Source: Thermoplasmata archaeon (GTDB lineage Archaea > Thermoplasmatota > Thermoplasmata > Thermoplasmatales > Thermoplasmataceae). Taken from it: 35,215 nucleotides of DNA. Location: assembly GCA_021802055.1 (NCBI GenBank), contig JAKAAY010000017.1, positions 1 to 35,215 of the forward strand, read 5' to 3'. A program made the position numbers and the translations under genes. This document shows positions 4,260 to 35,214 of the stretch, in pieces (within the stretch, counting starts at the first letter, position 1; every line of letters begins with the position of its first letter). A model generated the notes under the pieces. That model saw only the letters and a program-made list of their open reading frames with translations, was not told where the DNA came from and made no database searches.

Positions 4260-4736
4260 ATGAGTGAAAAAGCAAATGTTGAAGGATCAGACAAAATTGA
4301 AGAGTTTCTGACAGTCATAACGGAGAACGGAGCTTCCCTGGAGCCTGTTCTGGATGCTTTAATAGCCATCGGGAGGTCAGGTGTCCTGGAAAGACTGGGT
4401 AATGTAATTAAGGAGTTTTCGGCTACAGACCCCACTTATCTTCTGGGGATGTTTAGCTCAGAAGAATCCCTTAGGGGAATGGCGAAACTCCTGGGCCTGT
4501 TTTCATCGCTCCTGGCTGCGGCAGGGAGTGAGACATTGACGGATATCGTGAAGACCGTTGCATTCAATTCAGATTCCATATCAGATTCCATGGTCACTGG
4601 GGCCAAAAATCCTGACAGATTCGGGTTGATGAAGATGATGTCCACGATGAAGGATCCTGATTTTGCTTCCAGCCTCACTGCAATGATCAACGCACTCAAG
4701 ATCGTGGGAAAGCTCTTGAGGAACGTTGAACAGTAA
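4260..4736 (+). CDS. DUF1641 family protein, SQR partner
   Basis: This 158-residue, mostly helical protein ends with a segment typical of DUF1641 (GLMKMMSTMKDPDFASSL, then ALKIVGKLL). DUF1641 genes are frequently next to SQR-type flavoproteins, as here with an 11-nt gap, so a role with the oxidoreductase is likely (membrane attachment or complex formation). There are no clear transmembrane segments and no cysteines, so it is unlikely to be redox-active itself. Molecular function is unknown for the family. Confidence 0.75.
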   Translation: MSEKANVEGSDKIEEFLTVITENGASLEPVLDALIAIGRSGVLERLGNVIKEFSATDPTYLLGMFSSEESLRGMAKLLGLFSSLLAAAGSETLTDIVKTVAFNSDSISDSMVTGAKNPDRFGLMKMMSTMKDPDFASSLTAMINALKIVGKLLRNVEQ

Positions 4737-4751
4737 CTGTCATTGTAAGCC

Positions 4752-4759
4752 ATATATAT
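4752..4759 (+). promoter_or_regulatory. TATA box of osmC-family gene
   Basis: ATATATAT within CCATATATATCG, centred about 27 nt before the ATG at 4782, which predicts a leaderless mRNA. Confidence 0.55.
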
Positions 4760-4781
4760 CGAGAGTCAATATGAGGACGTC

Positions 4782-5237
4782 ATGAAAGTCTCATTCAGGT
4801 TCGACAAGGAAAAAGGATGGGTAACGGATGTTCCCGATAGATCCAAGGTATATATCAAGGATTCAATAGTTGAAAGGCCTGACCTCTTTTCGTCAAACGA
4901 GCATCTGGCTCTTGCCATGGGTTCCTGTACCAGTTCAGACGTCATTTCAATATTCAAGAAGATGAAGGCCGAATATACCTCCTTCAGATGTGAGGTGGAT
5001 GCAGATAGAGCCACTGAACACCCCAAGACCATAACTAAAGCAGATATACACTATATAATCGACGGAAATGTCACAAAGGAGCAGGCCTATAAAGCAATCG
5101 GCCTTTCCCTTACCAAATACTGCAGCGTTTCGATCCTTGCAAGACGCGGTGGAACTGCACTTACGTTCAGCCTCACGCTAAATGGTGAAAGGCTGTCCAA
5201 TCATCTTGCGCCTGAGCAGGCAGTGCAGACCTCATAG
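4782..5237 (+). CDS. OsmC/Ohr family protein
   Basis: This 151-residue protein has the two conserved cysteines of OsmC/Ohr thiol peroxidases: Cys49 in AMGSCTSSDV and Cys114 in LTKYCSVS. Such proteins reduce organic hydroperoxides through this cysteine pair. The helix after Cys49 and the ADIHYIIDG strand fit the fold. It has its own promoter and is probably transcribed separately from the SQR pair upstream. The last 6 bp overlap the convergent threonine synthase gene. Whether it is an Ohr- or an OsmC-type enzyme cannot be decided here. Confidence 0.85.
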   Translation: MKVSFRFDKEKGWVTDVPDRSKVYIKDSIVERPDLFSSNEHLALAMGSCTSSDVISIFKKMKAEYTSFRCEVDADRATEHPKTITKADIHYIIDGNVTKEQAYKAIGLSLTKYCSVSILARRGGTALTFSLTLNGERLSNHLAPEQAVQTS

Positions 5238-6251
5238 ATTCTTGAGCCCATTTCCGGTAAGGATGATCAGTGCTCCAGCCTCTGCTCCTGCCTTATTCCA
5301 GGCTGCGGAAGCAACCGCAGAACTAAATTCTGTGAGGACTCCTTTCCCCGCAAGGTCTCTATGCGCCTTTATTATTTCAGATTCTGAAACAGCGATGCAG
5401 TCCAGCATGTGAGCGTATCTCTTCATAATCATCCCCCTCAGGGGGGAATTTATGGTCACTAGGGCATCGGCAATCGACCTTACGCGGCCAGTCTCAACAG
5501 GAGTTCCCCTTAGATCCCTACAGAAAGGTGCCATTAACTCCGGCTGGGATATGACCAGTGATGGCAGACGGTCAATGAGTCCTGAATTCATAAGGTGGAT
5601 AAATCCCTCCGCAAGTCCTGAAAGGAGAGTCCCCGCCGATGTGGGAACGAAGATCTTTTGGGGCAGGTTCTTTCCAAATTGCCCGTAAATTTCATAGGCC
5701 AGAGTCCTGATTCCATCGCGGAACTCCGGCATGTATACGTGGCTGGCATAAATCCCCCGACCATGCTGGGCAGCAACGGCAACCTGCTCCCTGGATCCTT
5801 CAATGCGATTGATGTCTGCGCCATAGGCCTCTATCTGGGAAAGTTTCTGCCCCGCCGTTGAAGATGGCACATAGATCTTTACAGCAAATCCGGCGGAACG
5901 GCCGTATGCAGCGACCGAAGCGCCTGCATTGCCGGAAGAATCTTCACATATGGACTCTATGCCAAGTTCTTTCTTCACCTGTGCCAGGTATGATATCATA
6001 GTCCTTGTTCCTCTGTCCTTGTAAGAGAAAGTTGGCTGGAGGTAGTCCAGCTTGAGATATGCCTTCCCCATGCTGACAACCGGAGTTATGATCTCGCCAA
6101 GCGTCAACCATTTCCTTATGTAGGGAAAATTCTCTTCAATTTTATCTCTGAAGGGAAAATCCGGGAACATGTGGAATATTCCGCCGCACTCTGTGCATCT
6201 GAATTCCACCCCTTTTCTTTCTTTCCCGCAGCTGAAACACGCCGGTTTCAT
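5232..6251 (-). CDS. thrC: Threonine synthase (PLP-dependent fold type II)
   Basis: The 339-residue protein probably converts O-phosphohomoserine to threonine. It starts with a zinc-ribbon-like pair (CFSC at 5-8 and CTEC at 19-22), common in archaeal threonine synthases. The PLP lysine is Lys78 in FSYKDRGT. The motifs EDSSGNAGAS (phosphate/amide loop), PTSAGTLLSG (PLP phosphate loop) and ILTGNGLKNL at the C-terminus all match. It is somewhat short for the family. A related fold II activity such as threonine dehydratase is less likely given the zinc ribbon and the GNGLKNL ending. A weak TATA box (TTTTAACT, 6273-6280) lies 25 nt before the ATG. Confidence 0.85.
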   Translation of the reverse strand: MKPACFSCGKERKGVEFRCTECGGIFHMFPDFPFRDKIEENFPYIRKWLTLGEIITPVVSMGKAYLKLDYLQPTFSYKDRGTRTMISYLAQVKKELGIESICEDSSGNAGASVAAYGRSAGFAVKIYVPSSTAGQKLSQIEAYGADINRIEGSREQVAVAAQHGRGIYASHVYMPEFRDGIRTLAYEIYGQFGKNLPQKIFVPTSAGTLLSGLAEGFIHLMNSGLIDRLPSLVISQPELMAPFCRDLRGTPVETGRVRSIADALVTINSPLRGMIMKRYAHMLDCIAVSESEIIKAHRDLAGKGVLTEFSSAVASAAWNKAGAEAGALIILTGNGLKNL

Positions 6252-6384: not shown

Positions 6385-6409
6385 CTGACACTTGTCAGAC
6401 GTGTTCATC

Positions 6410-9400
6410 ATGTACATCGAATCGCTGGAACTGGATAACTTCAAGTCGTTCGGATTCAAGAAAATCCTTCATTTCAAGAAGGGTTTCACCATAATAAGCG
6501 GCCCTAACGGGAGTGGAAAGAGTAACATAGGAGATGCTTTTCTTTTTGTCCTCGGCACGAGGTCTTCGAAGACCATAAGAGTGGACAGGCTCTTTGAACT
6601 CATACACAAGCCTTCACAGGACCAGAAACAGAAGAACTACTGCAGAGTAAGCATAACCATAGATTCTGAGCAGGAGAACCTTCCGGAGGACGCACGAAAG
6701 ACAAAGATTACCAGAGAGCTGGTAAGAGAAGGGGAAGAATACAAAAGCAATTATTATCTCAACGACCAGAGGGTCAAGAAATACGACATTGAGGACTACC
6801 TGCAGAGGGTTCAGCTCCTCCTTGATTCATACAGCTTTGTCCTGCAGGGTGATATAAACAATATTTTCAAGATGACCGGCATGGAGAGAAGAAAACTTCT
6901 GGAATCCATTGCAGGAATCGAGAGCTATAACATACAGATAGAGAAGGCAAAGAGTGACATTGACGGCATAATGAACAATCTCAGGACCATAGAGACCCTG
7001 AGAGTCGAGCTTACTCAGAGGGTGGAATCCCTAAAGTTGCAGAAAGAGGATGCCCTTAACTACAACAGGTATGTTGAGGAGATCAACAACCTCAATGCCA
7101 CGATCCTCAAGCGTGAGTTGATGGGGCTGAGCACACAGATTGAAGCCCTTAAACGCCAGGCTGTTGAAATAGAGAGAAACGAGAATGAACTGAAGCAGAA
7201 AAGACAGGAGATTTCCACCTGCATCGAGTCCAATATTGCGAGAATCAGGGAAACGGAACGAAGGAAGGAGAGGATTTCTGGCCAGGAACTCAAGGATATC
7301 ACTGACAGAGTAAACGCCGTTCGAATTAAGAAAGCAGAAGACCAGATCAGGAGATCAAACCTGGAGGACGAATCCGGGAAGCTGGAATCGGAAAAGGCTA
7401 ATTTGGAAACCGAAGACGGGGAAATATCCGGGAGGATTGTGGAACTTGAAAACCTGAAGAGTGAGAATAATGCGCGTTCCACTGAACTCACAGAGAAGGT
7501 CAGGTTCCTGGAAGGAGAGCTTAAAAAGATCTCCTCTGAGGGAGACGAGATCAGCGAGGACATTTTCAAAATGCAGACGGACCTCAAATCGTCTGATGAC
7601 CGGATCACATCACTCAACAGGGAAATAGAGAAGATCGTTCAGGAGCAAAAATCCACTGAATCCACGAAGGAGAAGAAAATTACAGAGCTTGCAATGCTTG
7701 AGACCCAGAAGGGCGATCTGGAGTTTGAGGCCAAGGATGCAAGGTGGAGACTAAAGCAAATCAGCGAAGTAATGGTCACGCGTAAAGCCGATCTCGAAGC
7801 GGCCAACTCCAGATTTATAGAACTCCGCAGGCTTATTTCTGAAAAGACGAGGGAAAAGGATGCCCTGGTGAAGAGGATGATGCAGGAGAACTCAGAATAT
7901 GAGAGGATATCCCACATGGTCTCTTCCCAAAACCCGACTTCAAGACCGCTTCAGGCAATCTACCGTGCGACTTCATCGGGTGAAATCACCGGGGTCATCG
8001 GGAAGCTGAAGGAATTGATCTCCTTTGACGAGAAATTCCGAAGCGCAGTTGAAGCCTCTGCAGGTGCCAGACTCAATGCACTTGTTGTGGAGGACGATGG
8101 CGTAGCAGAGAAGTGTCTGTCCATACTTAAGAGGGAGCGCGCGGGCAAACTCACTTTCCTTCCCCTTAACAAGGTGGTTACGGGAAGACCCAGAGGTAAG
8201 GCCATTCTCATCAGGAATTCCGGAGAGAGCCTGGGATATGTGTCGGAGAACATCAAGTACGACGGCAAATATGAAAACGTGATATGGTACTGTTTTCAGG
8301 ATACCCTCATAATGGCCGATGTCACCTCTGCAAGGAAGAACATGGGAGGAGTCAGGCTTGTTACCCTTGACGGAGATATCTTTGAGACCAGCGGTGCCAT
8401 AACAGGAGGATTTATTGAGAGAGCTGGCGATCAGGCCTCCCTGGAGCAGAAAGCATCCAGGCTGTCTGCATCAATATCGGAAATAAGCGCAAATGTGGCT
8501 TCTCTTGGCGATGAATTATCCAGACTCCAGAACGAAATGCAGGAGGCTGGCACCAGAATCGCAGAACTTTCCAAAACGGAGGGTGAAAGCGGTTCACAGA
8601 CCTCGTCATACAGCGAAATCATAAAGTCTTCCGAAGATAAGATATTGTCCATTTCCGGCAGGATAACGGAACTTAAAAGAGAGATCGAGCTCCTGGATTC
8701 CCTGGTCCTTACGTTTGAGAAGAAGATCGGGGACATATCTGTGCAGATTGATCAGGAGAACAGCACCAGATCTGCCATATATTCAAAGCTTGAAAAAATC
8801 TCACCCGAACTCATAGCAAGAAAGAAGGAAGTTTCAGACAGGCTTGATTCTGCTAGAACAGATGCTGCCAGCATTCTCGTGGAGATCAATAGACTTACCA
8901 CAGAGGAAAGCGTCGTGAAACGAAGAAAATCTGAAATCTCCAGAAGAATCCAAGAAATTACAGTAAGACTGAAGGAAATTGCAGTCCTTGACCAGCAGAT
9001 TGCTGCGATCATGCAGGAGAGTATGGCTGAACTGGAAAAACTCAAGCTCCTGGAAGAACAGATAGACTCGAGAAACAAAGAACTCAACAGAGAAATTGAG
9101 AAACTCAGCGGGGAGAATAAAACCTACAATGCTACGGTCGACGACATAAATGTTCAGCTATCATCACTTCATGACTCGCACCTCAGCCTCAATATCCGCG
9201 TCGGAACCCTCGGTGATAAATACGCCGAGACCGAGGCTAAGATGGCGGAGGCCAAAGGCACACCACTGGAAACGGATATGACCTCCGCACAGATGAAGGC
9301 CCGCATCACTTTCATAAACGAGGAAATCGAAAAGATGGGGCCCATAAATCTGAGGGCCATAGAGGATTACGACCACGAAAGAGATAATCTTGAGAAGATG

Positions 9401-9967
9401 AACATGGAGATCGGGCAGCTCAACGATGAAAGAACAGAGCTGGAGAGCCTCATGGACAAGCTGAATGAACAGAAAAAGGTTATATTCCTCAGGCTTGTCA
9501 GCAACATTAACGAGAGAATGCAGTCAATATATTACGTACTCTCAAACGGAGGAGAAGCACGCCTTGAGATTTCAGATGAGAATGACCCTCTGAATGCAGA
9601 GGTGTTCATTAGCGCAAGGCCCAAAGGAAATAATTTCAACAAAATTGAACTGCTCAGCGGAGGCGAGAAGAGCGTAACGGCACTTGCATTTATAATGGCA
9701 GTGCAGAGAATCAGTCCATCCCCGGTGTATTACCTTGACGAAATCGACATGTACCTCGATGGAACCAATGCGGAGAGGATAGGCAAAATGTTCATGGAAA
9801 ACTCCTATACGGCCCAGACGATCGTTGTGACCCTGAAGAGATCACTTCTAAAATACGCAAATCAGATGATCGGGGTAACGAGCTTTGATGGCGTCAATAC
9901 TGAAATATTTGAGAAGGAGATCAAGGAAATGGGAGACGTGAAAGAGGAGGAATCAAATGCAAGTTGA
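6410..9967 (+). CDS. smc: Chromosome segregation protein SMC
   Basis: This 1185-residue SMC ATPase forms the coiled-coil core of the archaeal condensin that organises and segregates the chromosome. Walker A is GPNGSGKS (31-38). Two long coiled-coil arms flank a hinge at about 523-668 (from EITGVIGKLKELI to GAITGGFI). The C-terminal head carries the ABC signature LSGGEKS near 1081 and Walker B VYYLDEID near 1105, followed by MYLDGTNAERIG as D-loop. The ATG at 6410 is preferred over a TTG at 6392 because the first strand of SMC heads starts there and the promoter spacing fits. The scpA gene overlaps its last 11 bp, so the two are co-translated. Confidence 0.97.
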   Translation: MYIESLELDNFKSFGFKKILHFKKGFTIISGPNGSGKSNIGDAFLFVLGTRSSKTIRVDRLFELIHKPSQDQKQKNYCRVSITIDSEQENLPEDARKTKITRELVREGEEYKSNYYLNDQRVKKYDIEDYLQRVQLLLDSYSFVLQGDINNIFKMTGMERRKLLESIAGIESYNIQIEKAKSDIDGIMNNLRTIETLRVELTQRVESLKLQKEDALNYNRYVEEINNLNATILKRELMGLSTQIEALKRQAVEIERNENELKQKRQEISTCIESNIARIRETERRKERISGQELKDITDRVNAVRIKKAEDQIRRSNLEDESGKLESEKANLETEDGEISGRIVELENLKSENNARSTELTEKVRFLEGELKKISSEGDEISEDIFKMQTDLKSSDDRITSLNREIEKIVQEQKSTESTKEKKITELAMLETQKGDLEFEAKDARWRLKQISEVMVTRKADLEAANSRFIELRRLISEKTREKDALVKRMMQENSEYERISHMVSSQNPTSRPLQAIYRATSSGEITGVIGKLKELISFDEKFRSAVEASAGARLNALVVEDDGVAEKCLSILKRERAGKLTFLPLNKVVTGRPRGKAILIRNSGESLGYVSENIKYDGKYENVIWYCFQDTLIMADVTSARKNMGGVRLVTLDGDIFETSGAITGGFIERAGDQASLEQKASRLSASISEISANVASLGDELSRLQNEMQEAGTRIAELSKTEGESGSQTSSYSEIIKSSEDKILSISGRITELKREIELLDSLVLTFEKKIGDISVQIDQENSTRSAIYSKLEKISPELIARKKEVSDRLDSARTDAASILVEINRLTTEESVVKRRKSEISRRIQEITVRLKEIAVLDQQIAAIMQESMAELEKLKLLEEQIDSRNKELNREIEKLSGENKTYNATVDDINVQLSSLHDSHLSLNIRVGTLGDKYAETEAKMAEAKGTPLETDMTSAQMKARITFINEEIEKMGPINLRAIEDYDHERDNLEKMNMEIGQLNDERTELESLMDKLNEQKKVIFLRLVSNINERMQSIYYVLSNGGEARLEISDENDPLNAEVFISARPKGNNFNKIELLSGGEKSVTALAFIMAVQRISPSPVYYLDEIDMYLDGTNAERIGKMFMENSYTAQTIVVTLKRSLLKYANQMIGVTSFDGVNTEIFEKEIKEMGDVKEEESNAS

Positions 9968-10763
9968 GGATATTATCAAGAGCGTGGCAGTCCAGGGATC
10001 GCTCCTCGACCTTGACACGGACCTCTACCAGAACATAATAAGTGAGAGCCGCAGGAGCGCAGTCCCGCAGGATGACGTGCTTTCGAGGATCATCTCAAAC
10101 ATAGTGAGACTTTGCGAATCTGGAGCCGTGGATCCCTGGTATATCGACATCAACGGCATTTCCAGAATACTATCATCAATGATTGATGAAAACTTCAGTG
10201 ATTTTGCGCAGGCAGGGTACCTGATGTGGCAGGCCTGGCACATTCTGTTCAAGAAATCCGAAAAGCTCATCAGTGACGCAGACTGGAAGAGAACGGTGGA
10301 ATCTGAAGAGGTGGACTTCAGCGCCGATACCCTGGATCCTGTTTACACGGACGTGGAGATAACCGGGATAAACGGATCCCCGGTGATTGGAGTGAGGGAG
10401 CCTGTCCAGCACAGGGAGAGGAGAAGAATCCTCATGGTGGAACTCCTCGAGGCCATTCGGAAAGCTTATTATTTCAAGCGAGACAGAAAAGATCCTGTAC
10501 AGATCGTCGAAGCTCCCCGGGAGATCGACATAGACGGCATTGTAAACAACCTTAACGCTGAGGAGCCGGAGCGGGAGATAGAAAAACTCCGTGCCGATAT
10601 AATGTCACTAAACCTCGAGAGATTTTCCTTTAGAGAACTCACATTTGCTTCCACCATGGATCCCCCAGCGATTTTTCTCTATCTGATGTTCCTCGCAAGA
10701 AACCACATTGTAAAGCTTTCGCAGGAATCAGCGTATGGTGAGATATGGATCGCCCTGGTGTAG
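9957..10763 (+). CDS. scpA: Segregation and condensation protein A (kleisin)
   Basis: ScpA is the kleisin that bridges the two SMC heads. The 268-residue protein has the N-terminal helical domain (SLLDLDTDLYQNI, then SGAVDPWYIDINGI), a long acidic middle, and a C-terminal winged helix (FLYLMFLARNHIVKLSQESAYGEIWI) typical of the family. A strong Shine-Dalgarno GGAGG lies 7 nt before the ATG inside smc. No scpB gene follows in this window. The next gene overlaps its last 19 bp. Confidence 0.92.
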   Translation: MQVEDIIKSVAVQGSLLDLDTDLYQNIISESRRSAVPQDDVLSRIISNIVRLCESGAVDPWYIDINGISRILSSMIDENFSDFAQAGYLMWQAWHILFKKSEKLISDADWKRTVESEEVDFSADTLDPVYTDVEITGINGSPVIGVREPVQHRERRRILMVELLEAIRKAYYFKRDRKDPVQIVEAPREIDIDGIVNNLNAEEPEREIEKLRADIMSLNLERFSFRELTFASTMDPPAIFLYLMFLARNHIVKLSQESAYGEIWIALV

Positions 10764-11017
10764 ATAGCGGGGCATGGCCCGGAAAGACCTTCATCAGCGC
10801 CTCGGATCTTGCTGAATACTCTTACTGCAGTACCCAGTGGTACATGGATAAGATGGGATACCAGCGTGACGAGAGGGCTAACACGAGGATGGTGACTGGC
10901 CGCCAGATGCATCAGGAACTGGGTACAAGAACAAGGAACTCCAGATCTATTCTCAGGATCGGATCCCTTCTGTTACTTGTTTCCATCGTGCTTCTAGTCA
11001 TCATGTTGCTGGCATGA
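10745..11017 (+). CDS. Cas4-like nuclease, chain A: Fe-S cysteine, active-site His and one TM helix
   Basis: This 90-residue protein matches only the N-terminal part of Cas4/RecB-type PD-(D/E)XK exonucleases. SASDLAEYSYCSTQWYM carries Cys28, the position of the first Fe-S ligand, and GRQMHQELG carries His56, the motif I histidine. It then ends in one hydrophobic helix (73-90), preceded by Arg-rich residues that would stay in the cytoplasm. The catalytic Asp, Glu and Lys are missing here and lie in the next gene, whose ATG overlaps this stop (ATGA). GGTGA precedes the ATG, which lies inside scpA. A frameshift in one longer gene is the alternative; the clean ATGA junction and the helix on each side favour two real chains. 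Confidence 0.75.
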   Translation: MDRPGVDSGAWPGKTFISASDLAEYSYCSTQWYMDKMGYQRDERANTRMVTGRQMHQELGTRTRNSRSILRIGSLLLLVSIVLLVIMLLA

Positions 11018-11535
11018 ACTACCTCTTTCTGGGAATTACAGTGGCCATTCTTCTGATTTCCTTAATTCTGCTTATCACCGGCTTTAGACGCAATGCAAGA
11101 GATGCGGTACCAACGGGGTCCATGGTATATGGTGACCTGCATTCCAGAGGCACCACCATGCGTTCCCACACCTACGGGCTCTCCGGAAAGCCTGACATGG
11201 TCGTGAAATCGGGGAGGAACCTGATACCGTATGAATACAAGAACACGGATACGGCGAAACCTCGAGATGGGCACCTGGTGCAGATGGGGGCTTATTTCCT
11301 GATTCTGGAGGACCTGAATCCTGGATTGAAGGTACCATATGGAATAATTAAGTACAGGAATTCGGCATTCAAGGTGCCAAATTCCGCACAGTTGAGGGGT
11401 AAGGTACTGTATGTGGCAGACCAGATCAGGAACAACACCGGCGAACCAAAGAGAAACCACGAGAATCCCATGAAGTGCATGCCTTGCTCCTTCAGGGAAA
11501 TATGCACACAAAGCTTAATTATATTGCAGAGGTGA
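11014..11535 (+). CDS. Cas4-like nuclease, chain B: TM helix, PD-(D/E)XK core and Fe-S cysteines
   Basis: The 173-residue protein starts with a hydrophobic helix (3-23) followed by RRNAR, which predicts the rest is cytoplasmic. The nuclease core follows: Asp61 in GLSGKPDMVV, Glu74-x-Lys76 in IPYEYKNT, and Gln90/Tyr94 in HLVQMGAYFLILED. Next come PYGIIKYRNS and the three-cysteine cluster Cys155, Cys158, Cys164 in KCMPCSFREIC. These are the motifs of the Cas4 family of Fe-S exonucleases, except for the His and first Cys, which are in the gene just upstream. There is no CRISPR array or other cas gene in the window, so a CRISPR role is not indicated. The smc-scpA context suggests DNA end processing or chromosome maintenance at the membrane. 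Confidence 0.78.
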   Translation: MNYLFLGITVAILLISLILLITGFRRNARDAVPTGSMVYGDLHSRGTTMRSHTYGLSGKPDMVVKSGRNLIPYEYKNTDTAKPRDGHLVQMGAYFLILEDLNPGLKVPYGIIKYRNSAFKVPNSAQLRGKVLYVADQIRNNTGEPKRNHENPMKCMPCSFREICTQSLIILQR

Positions 11536-11545
11536 TGCCCTCCCG

Positions 11546-12583
11546 ATGGACCCATATGCCCTCCTGACCAGGGGAACGTCAGAGGTAATTACCGAAGAAG
11601 AGGCGAGAACCCTTATAACTCGCAAATTCACGGGATACATCGGTTTTGAACCATCCGGAATACCGCATATCGCCCTCGGGTTGCTTTGGCCCAGGAAAAT
11701 TGCTGAAATAGTTGATGCAGGCTGTGAAATGACTGTTTATCTCGCGGACTGGCACGCCATGGTCAACGACAAGCTCGGACGCGACATGGGCAGAATAAGG
11801 GCCAGTGGCAGGATTTTTGAGAGGGTAATGAGGAGAATGGGTGTACCGGACGGAGTCAAGTTCATCTGGGCCAGCGATGTACTTGACGACCCGGAATACT
11901 GGAAGATGCTCCTCAATGTGGCAAAGAATTCCAGCCTCAAGCGTCTTGTGAGGGCACTGCCCATAATGGGAAGAAGCGAAACCGACGCCAACCTCGATTT
12001 CAGCAAGTACATATACCCCCTGATGCAGGTGACTGACATATTCTTCCTTGAGTTTGATCTGGCCCTGGGTGGAATGGATCAGAGACATGCGCATATGCTT
12101 GCCAGGGATATAGCCGATAAGATGGGAATGAAGAAGGTCGTGGCCATCCATTCCCCCCTCATCTCCAGCCTCAAGGGCAGGGGGAGAATGGACCCGGTCT
12201 CGGATCCCAGTGCCATAAAGATGTCCAAGAGCGATGTCAGTTCCGGAATTTTCATGTTTGATAGCCCCGATGAAATAAGGCGGAAGATATCGGCATCATT
12301 CTGCCCCGCCCAAACCATTGCTGAAAACCCCGTTGCGGACATATTGAAGCTTGTGATTCTTCCAAGGTACCCGCAAGGGATAACCATTTCCAGACCGGAG
12401 GGCAAGGGAGGGCCCATACATGTCAGCGATGAGGCAGCCTTTTCGCAGATGTACAGTTCTGGCGGCATTCACCCTGCGGACCTGAAGACTACCGTGGCAG
12501 ATTACCTTGTTGAACTTCTGGAGCCCATGAAGGCCCTTGGGGAAGAGCTCCGATCAGACATTGATACTGTCCTCTCCAGATAA
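11546..12583 (+). CDS. tyrS: Tyrosyl-tRNA synthetase
   Basis: This 345-residue class I enzyme charges tRNA-Tyr. The archaeal/eukaryotic TyrRS signature GYIGFEPSG begins at residue 30, with the HIGH-equivalent reading PHIALG (40-45). That is closer to the PHVA form of animal enzymes than to the HLGH of methanogens. Further motifs are YLADWHAMVND, YPLMQVTDI and GGMDQRHAHMLAR in the active site, and KMSKS at 225-229. No separate anticodon-binding extension is present, as in archaeal TyrRS. GAGGTGAT lies about 10 nt before the ATG, and the gene is the last of the smc operon. Confidence 0.95.
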   Translation: MDPYALLTRGTSEVITEEEARTLITRKFTGYIGFEPSGIPHIALGLLWPRKIAEIVDAGCEMTVYLADWHAMVNDKLGRDMGRIRASGRIFERVMRRMGVPDGVKFIWASDVLDDPEYWKMLLNVAKNSSLKRLVRALPIMGRSETDANLDFSKYIYPLMQVTDIFFLEFDLALGGMDQRHAHMLARDIADKMGMKKVVAIHSPLISSLKGRGRMDPVSDPSAIKMSKSDVSSGIFMFDSPDEIRRKISASFCPAQTIAENPVADILKLVILPRYPQGITISRPEGKGGPIHVSDEAAFSQMYSSGGIHPADLKTTVADYLVELLEPMKALGEELRSDIDTVLSR

Positions 12584-35141: not shown

Positions 35142-35214
35142 GGGCTCGTAGTCTAGTGGTTATGATACCGCCCTTACAAGGCGGTGGTCACCGGTTCGAA
35201 TCCGGTCGGGCCCA
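35142..35214 (+). tRNA. tRNA-Val (anticodon UAC)
   Basis: A complete cloverleaf: acceptor GGGCTCG (35142-35148) pairs with CGGGCCC (35207-35213), discriminator A at 35214. The anticodon stem CCGCC/GGCGG encloses loop CTTACAA with anticodon TAC at 35175-35177. The T arm is ACCGG-TTCGAAT-CCGGT. There is no intron, and CCA is not encoded (the next base is T). Confidence 0.95.

Follow-up and report, generated by a model that had tools for sequence, protein, structure and literature searches.

Cas4 proteins (DUF83, PF01930, TIGR00372) are PD-(D/E)XK nucleases, characterized by the residues D, E-x-K and Q, a GxxxH motif, and four iron-sulfur (Fe-S) cysteines, one of which is N-terminal, whereas the other three form a C-terminal C-x2-C-x5-C motif. 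Each consists of one soluble polypeptide, as in SSO0001 (4ic1), Pcal_0546 (4r5q) and the type I-C protein (8d3l), and the solo members stand outside CRISPR. In Dna2 and AddB, a Cys-ligated Fe-S cluster is found around the nuclease. In Synechococcus, a solo Cas4-like nuclease makes RSF1010 plasmids less readily transferred or maintained (PMC10653904). The main text of a study by Hudaiberdiev et al. (2017; PMC5704561) makes no mention of transmembrane or split forms, of SMC, or of Thermoplasma, and no description of a two-chain or membrane-bound Cas4 was found in the open literature searched, the coverage of which was incomplete.

The gene pair described here, encoding chains A and B, shares with Cas4 proteins the PD-(D/E)XK and GxxxH motifs, the arrangement of one plus three cysteines and, by AF2 and Foldseek, the predicted fold. 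Unlike Cas4, it consists of two chains, with a transmembrane helix flanking the cut on each side, and is predicted to be membrane-anchored. The fold is also common to the nuclease domains of Dna2, AddB and MGME1 (Foldseek matches), from which A/B differs in its two chains, its membrane anchors and the absence of a fused helicase, no helicase being present in either chain.

The window analysed is an entire contig of 35,215 bp, from a 1.48-Mb archaeal genome that clusters with MAGs of the class Thermoplasmata. The two open reading frames, reported in the preliminary description to be linked by an ATGA, were found at the positions given in Table 1, A beginning within scpA with an overlap of 19 nt. 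Overlaps of 4 nt between A and B recur in several orthologues and in plasmid pairs from Planctomycetes. Beyond the tyrS-like gene lie fen1 and radB (names assigned from sequence), on the opposite strand. Homologues of B were found in 35 of the 61 genomes searched. In another 22 family genomes, and in six more from a search of the class, A and B lie as two distinct open reading frames in the interval from scpA to tyrS. Split pairs thus occur in 28 other family genomes, representing 12 genera, and also in two other families.

Table 1. Features of the gene row containing chains A and B, in window coordinates.
Feature	Position	Strand	Remarks
smc	6392..9967	+	Pfam SMC_N E 1e-62, hinge 5e-24; heads the conserved gene row; relatives have the same order
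scpA	9957..10763	+	Pfam SMC_ScpA E 0.005, weak; position upstream of A conserved in the family; overlaps smc and chain A
Chain A, predicted N-terminal half of Cas4-type nuclease	10745..11017	+	90 aa; orthologues in 28 other family genomes
Cys28 codon (A), putative first cluster ligand	10826..10828	+	invariant in 39/39 pairs
His56 codon (A), GxxxH motif	10910..10912	+	35/39 pairs; absent only where B lost E-x-K
Transmembrane helix of A, residues 72-90	10958..11014	+	mean hydropathy 3.06 over 19 aa
ATGA, A stop / B start overlap	11014..11017	+	probable translational coupling
Chain B, transmembrane helix, then predicted C-terminal half of Cas4-type nuclease	11014..11535	+	173 aa
Transmembrane helix of B, residues 4-22	11023..11079	+	mean hydropathy 2.91 over 19 aa
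Putative catalytic stretch of B	11194..11283	+	Asp61 11194-11196, Glu74 11233-11235, Lys76 11239-11241, Gln90 11281-11283
Cysteine triad of B, C155-x2-C158-x5-C164	11476..11505	+	invariant in 39/39 pairs
tyrS-like, tRNA synthetase class I (W/Y)	11546..12583	+	Pfam E 1e-37; downstream neighbour conserved in the family
tRNA-Val (TAC)	35142..35214		extreme end of the contig

In profile searches, both chains matched Cas4 models. B matched the Pfam Cas4 model with 37.3 bits (cut-off 22.7; E 4e-9). On the NCBIfam cas4 model, which has 180 positions, A covers positions 1-50 (E 2e-5) and B covers positions 60-179, with scores, each chain taken singly, of 24.6 and 57.9, respectively, against a cut-off of 65. 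The two chains tile this one model, and the gap of 10 positions between them is the site of the transmembrane helices; the PADLOC Cas4 models gave the same tiling. A profile of 21 B chains matched residues 102-205 of the Cas4 protein 8d3l (E 4.6e-9), and the top match of a profile built from 25 A chains was to residues 3-67 of the same protein, although at E 0.63 this is not significant alone. Together, these alignments indicate that A and B are the two halves, in order, of one Cas4-type nuclease, in which the transmembrane helices replace about 10 positions.

The residues predicted to form the nuclease site are likewise divided between the chains. A carries Cys28 and Gly52-x3-His56, and B carries Asp61, Glu74-x-Lys76, His87, Gln90, Tyr94 and Cys155/158/164; those residues that the preliminary description lists are all in the stated places. 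Its proposal that two chains jointly supply a Cas4-type site and the Fe-S ligands is supported by these motifs. The full set D, E-x-K, Q and GxxxH is thus present in A plus B jointly, as are the four cysteines (A C28; B C155/C158/C164), and the pair may be expected to bind a Cas4-type Fe-S cluster and to have nuclease activity. The same description had placed the pair outside CRISPR, which is borne out by the absence of Cas1 from the window genome (96% complete; 9 of 14 control genomes were positive), so that a CRISPR component could be ruled out. PADLOC did not assign A/B to a known defence system, returning only Cas4-type models and models of Cas1 fused to Cas4 (the single-chain form described below additionally matches DruK), and searches of phages and viral contigs, carried out in view of a possible viral origin, gave zero matches.

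Almost every pair examined has one transmembrane helix at the end of A, just before the stop codon, and another at the beginning of B; the B helix of L053 went undetected since the start of this B was placed too late. In the window, the A helix is preceded by four Lys/Arg within 15 residues and followed by none, and the B helix is preceded by none and followed by three within 15 residues. Across the pairs, one to six Lys/Arg precede the A helix and two to eight follow the B helix, on the nuclease side in both cases, and the outside ends are nearly devoid of them. Under the positive-inside rule, flanks rich in Lys/Arg are read as cytoplasmic. The placement of the helices and the charge bias fit a hairpin made of two pieces, the nuclease halves both lying in the cytoplasm, in agreement with the earlier proposal that each chain is anchored at the cut.

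For structure prediction, A and B were modelled through L040, a natural same-frame pair in which the TGA was read through as Trp. The AF2 model (pLDDT 78, pTM 0.64) had Cas4 as its best fold (E 3e-7). Among PDB folds, the model of a single-chain relative, L063 (pLDDT 86, pTM 0.75), matched Cas4 and Dna2 best, with MGME1 lower. Cas4 proteins were the top Foldseek matches of both models, with TM-scores to Cas4 of only 0.3-0.5. The alignments were shallow, and confidence in the L040 pair was lowest at the Cys-bearing residues 28-32 and 230-234. The models are thus favourable to a Cas4 fold for the pair, but the joint Fe-S site, for which structure prediction had been proposed as a check, was not resolved in these low-confidence regions.

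The reading that we consider quite probable is that A and B are translated separately but in a coupled manner, and assemble on the cytoplasmic side of the membrane into one nuclease of the Cas4/Dna2 type. One transmembrane helix would bring each chain into the membrane, and the two helices would pair as a hairpin without an outside turn. Pairing would set the A half (Cys28, GxxxH) against the B half (Asp61, Glu74-x-Lys76, Gln90 and the three cysteines), whereby the metal site and the four-Cys Fe-S cluster would be completed across two chains.

The gene row invites the alternative that A/B is a partner of SMC-ScpA, acting as a membrane nuclease in segregation or, together with SMC, in defence, in the manner of the Wadjet/MksG nucleases. 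The other 28 genomes of the family that were examined all keep the order smc-scpA-A-B-tyrS, with overlaps or near overlaps, and partnerships between SMC proteins and nucleases have been reported (PMC10586767, PMC10123090). However, near-complete genomes of at least four genera possess smc-scpA without A/B, and the homologues outside the family, split or single-chain, are not found beside smc-scpA. Among the split pairs of other families, L053 and L208 adjoin a gene that we take to be PAC2-like, and L054 adjoins a DUF2240 gene. Operons can also persist by inheritance without functional coupling, and the adjacent tyrS is equally conserved. The Wadjet/MksBEFG systems are defined by an MksG/JetD-type nuclease and a dedicated SMC operon, whereas the A/B nuclease is of the PD-(D/E)XK Cas4 type and its SMC context does not extend beyond the family. 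The link is thus lineage-specific, and the neighbourhood suggests co-expression rather than a shared machine. The operon is kept within the family, but the functional coupling to SMC-ScpA put forward in the preliminary description is not supported as stated, and neither is the role in chromosome segregation drawn from the scpA overlap. We regard an SMC partnership as unlikely. In the scpA-tyrS interval of one genome (G006), a 79-aa open reading frame on the minus strand (L160), with a transmembrane stretch, no cysteines and no match to B, is likely a remnant after the loss of A/B.

That A and B have a single active site in common is best supported by residues that were lost together. Among the 39 aligned pairs, Asp61 of B is invariant, and His56, Glu74, Lys76 and Gln90 are retained in nearly all; 35 of the 39 have every ligand and catalytic residue. 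In the other four (L048, L212, L213 and L214), the histidine of A and the E-x-K of B have disappeared together, with Gln90 altered as well in L048, and one-sided loss, of only the A histidine or only the B E-x-K, was found in none of the 39. The association (Fisher p 1e-5) reflects no more than two independent events in the phylogeny, in two lineages, but joint loss across two genes is as a shared catalytic site predicts. The four pairs keep all four cysteines, at least the L213/L214 pair is under purifying selection, and they are apparent pseudo-nucleases with function retained. These same pairs favour the view that catalysis is not the main function, and that A/B is an Fe-S membrane protein with a structural role or a DNA-binding sensor; the retention of every catalytic residue in 35 of the 39 pairs argues against this view, to which we assign a low probability, somewhat below that of an SMC partnership.

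To judge from comparison of the orthologues, the division into two genes is genuine and not an assembly error. The junctions include ATGA and TTGA overlaps, overlaps of 1 nt and 7 nt and small gaps, and in L040 and L035 the two chains directly abut at an in-frame TGA or TAA; all three relative frames (0, +1 and -1) are represented, and stop and start codons differ. With junctions so varied, and in all three frames, no single indel, slippery site or read-through accounts for the split. Programmed frameshifting or stop read-through might nevertheless be supposed to join A to B, with a single chain as the working enzyme, and L038, L041 and L047 lack an ATG, GTG or TTG start for B at the junction. 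Two of these three have a CTGA overlap, possibly a non-standard start. A regular start codon for B lies only a few bases from the stop of A in most pairs, the stops include TGA, TAG and TAA, and the three-frame junctions have no slippery sequence in common, which makes a joined product very improbable. The preliminary description had proposed to ask whether orthologues are separate or fused and preceded by smc-scpA: in the family, A and B are separate and smc-scpA precedes them, and in place of fused orthologues and an indel at 11014, the orthologues examined are split, in three frames. That a frameshift from sequencing or assembly divided a single-chain gene, as single-chain homologues across the class might suggest, is virtually dismissed by the split state of every family orthologue examined, closed single-contig genomes included, by the three relative frames and differing stop and start codons, by the annotation of two genes in RefSeq on complete Planctomycete and Bacillus plasmids, and by the position of the split forms in a clade apart from the single chains. 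Nei-Gojobori dN/dS ratios are low for A and B and comparable to that of scpA, in a set that includes one decayed pair, so that the two chains are both under purifying selection.

A match to the B profile was obtained in 277 of 400 genomes of the class, although Cas4-like proteins of other kinds may account for weak matches. Beyond the split clade, the homologues are mostly single proteins of about 330-345 aa (e.g., L063), with the same motifs and about four transmembrane helices between the same two halves, at the same break point. A tree of 62 rows contained three strongly supported groups, namely the split pairs of archaea, those of Planctomycetes and the single chains of archaea, and both archaeal forms coexist in three genomes. 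The single chains, being a separate clade with about four transmembrane helices, explain the fold and give no sign of a frameshift; they also differ from A/B in that their neighbours are not smc-scpA. When the tree was rooted on six CRISPR Cas4 proteins, the split forms were basal and the single chains nested, with weak support and long branches, so this order is tentative. A broader scenario, which we consider possible but rather doubtful, is an old and widespread membrane Cas4 lineage that requires both of its chains, the active site and the Fe-S cluster forming only upon transmembrane pairing, and that perhaps serves as a membrane gate for DNA; the two-chain form may be ancestral, and the single-chain form with four helices may represent re-fusions. 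Among the single-chain relatives, L065 and L066 retain E-x-K, their loss being confined to the GxxxH histidine.

The split between A-helix and helix-B occurs at the same place in bacteria, with the cysteines and catalytic motifs kept. Complete plasmids of the Planctomycetes Singulisphaera acidiphila and Paludisphaera borealis carry a split pair with a 4-nt overlap, and three Bacillus subtilis plasmids carry one, two of which were examined (L223, NZ_OX419581.1, 4676-5414, with the two genes at 4676-4921 and 4926-5414; L227, NZ_OX419568.1, 4798-5536). The Bacillus A chain is related to that of the window (hhalign probability 98%), and the B chains are 35% identical. Unlike the archaeal pair, these are plasmid-borne, with methylase, MobF relaxase or helicase genes as neighbours. 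Near the Planctomycete pairs L221, L222, L185, L191, L107, L110 and L182 there is a gene for a MobF relaxase (at four loci) or for a DNA methyltransferase, and the two B. subtilis pairs have a helicase gene upstream and an hfq gene downstream. In RefSeq, the plasmid pairs are named as a hypothetical protein and a PD-(D/E)XK or Dna2/Cas4 domain protein.

The neighbours vary by lineage (scpA, PAC2-like, DUF2240, LTD-PLD and plasmid genes), and context thus does not point to a single substrate. The bacterial pairs near MobF relaxases, methylases or a helicase, the LTD-PLD neighbours and the Synechococcus Cas4-like precedent would be best accommodated by a nuclease that is tethered to the membrane and acts on DNA arriving or retained there. 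More tentatively, A/B may trim or degrade DNA ends brought to the membrane, in all likelihood those of incoming or mobile DNA, rather than serve SMC-ScpA, as the plasmid pairs and the Synechococcus precedent suggest. If the proposal is correct, the division of an active site and its Fe-S ligands over two membrane chains would be an unusual control of DNA cutting through membrane assembly, and would assign a definite location in the cell to part of the large set of solo Cas4 proteins whose role is unknown. Annotation hides such enzymes by naming one half as hypothetical and the other as Cas4-like. With the plasmid pair of B. subtilis, the question can be put to the test in a species in standard laboratory use.

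Two kinds of neighbour recur at the archaeal single-chain loci. In seven of them (L062, L063, L143, L155, L156, L157 and L158), a gene beside or near the single-chain gene encodes a protein that looks exported and combines a lamin-tail domain, a PLD domain and a transmembrane stretch at the C-terminus (LTD-PLD). In L139, L144, L145 and L150-L154, the single-chain gene is adjoined by one for a TPD-motif protein (PF14811 in L139), in the company of glmS-like and nucleotidyltransferase-like genes.
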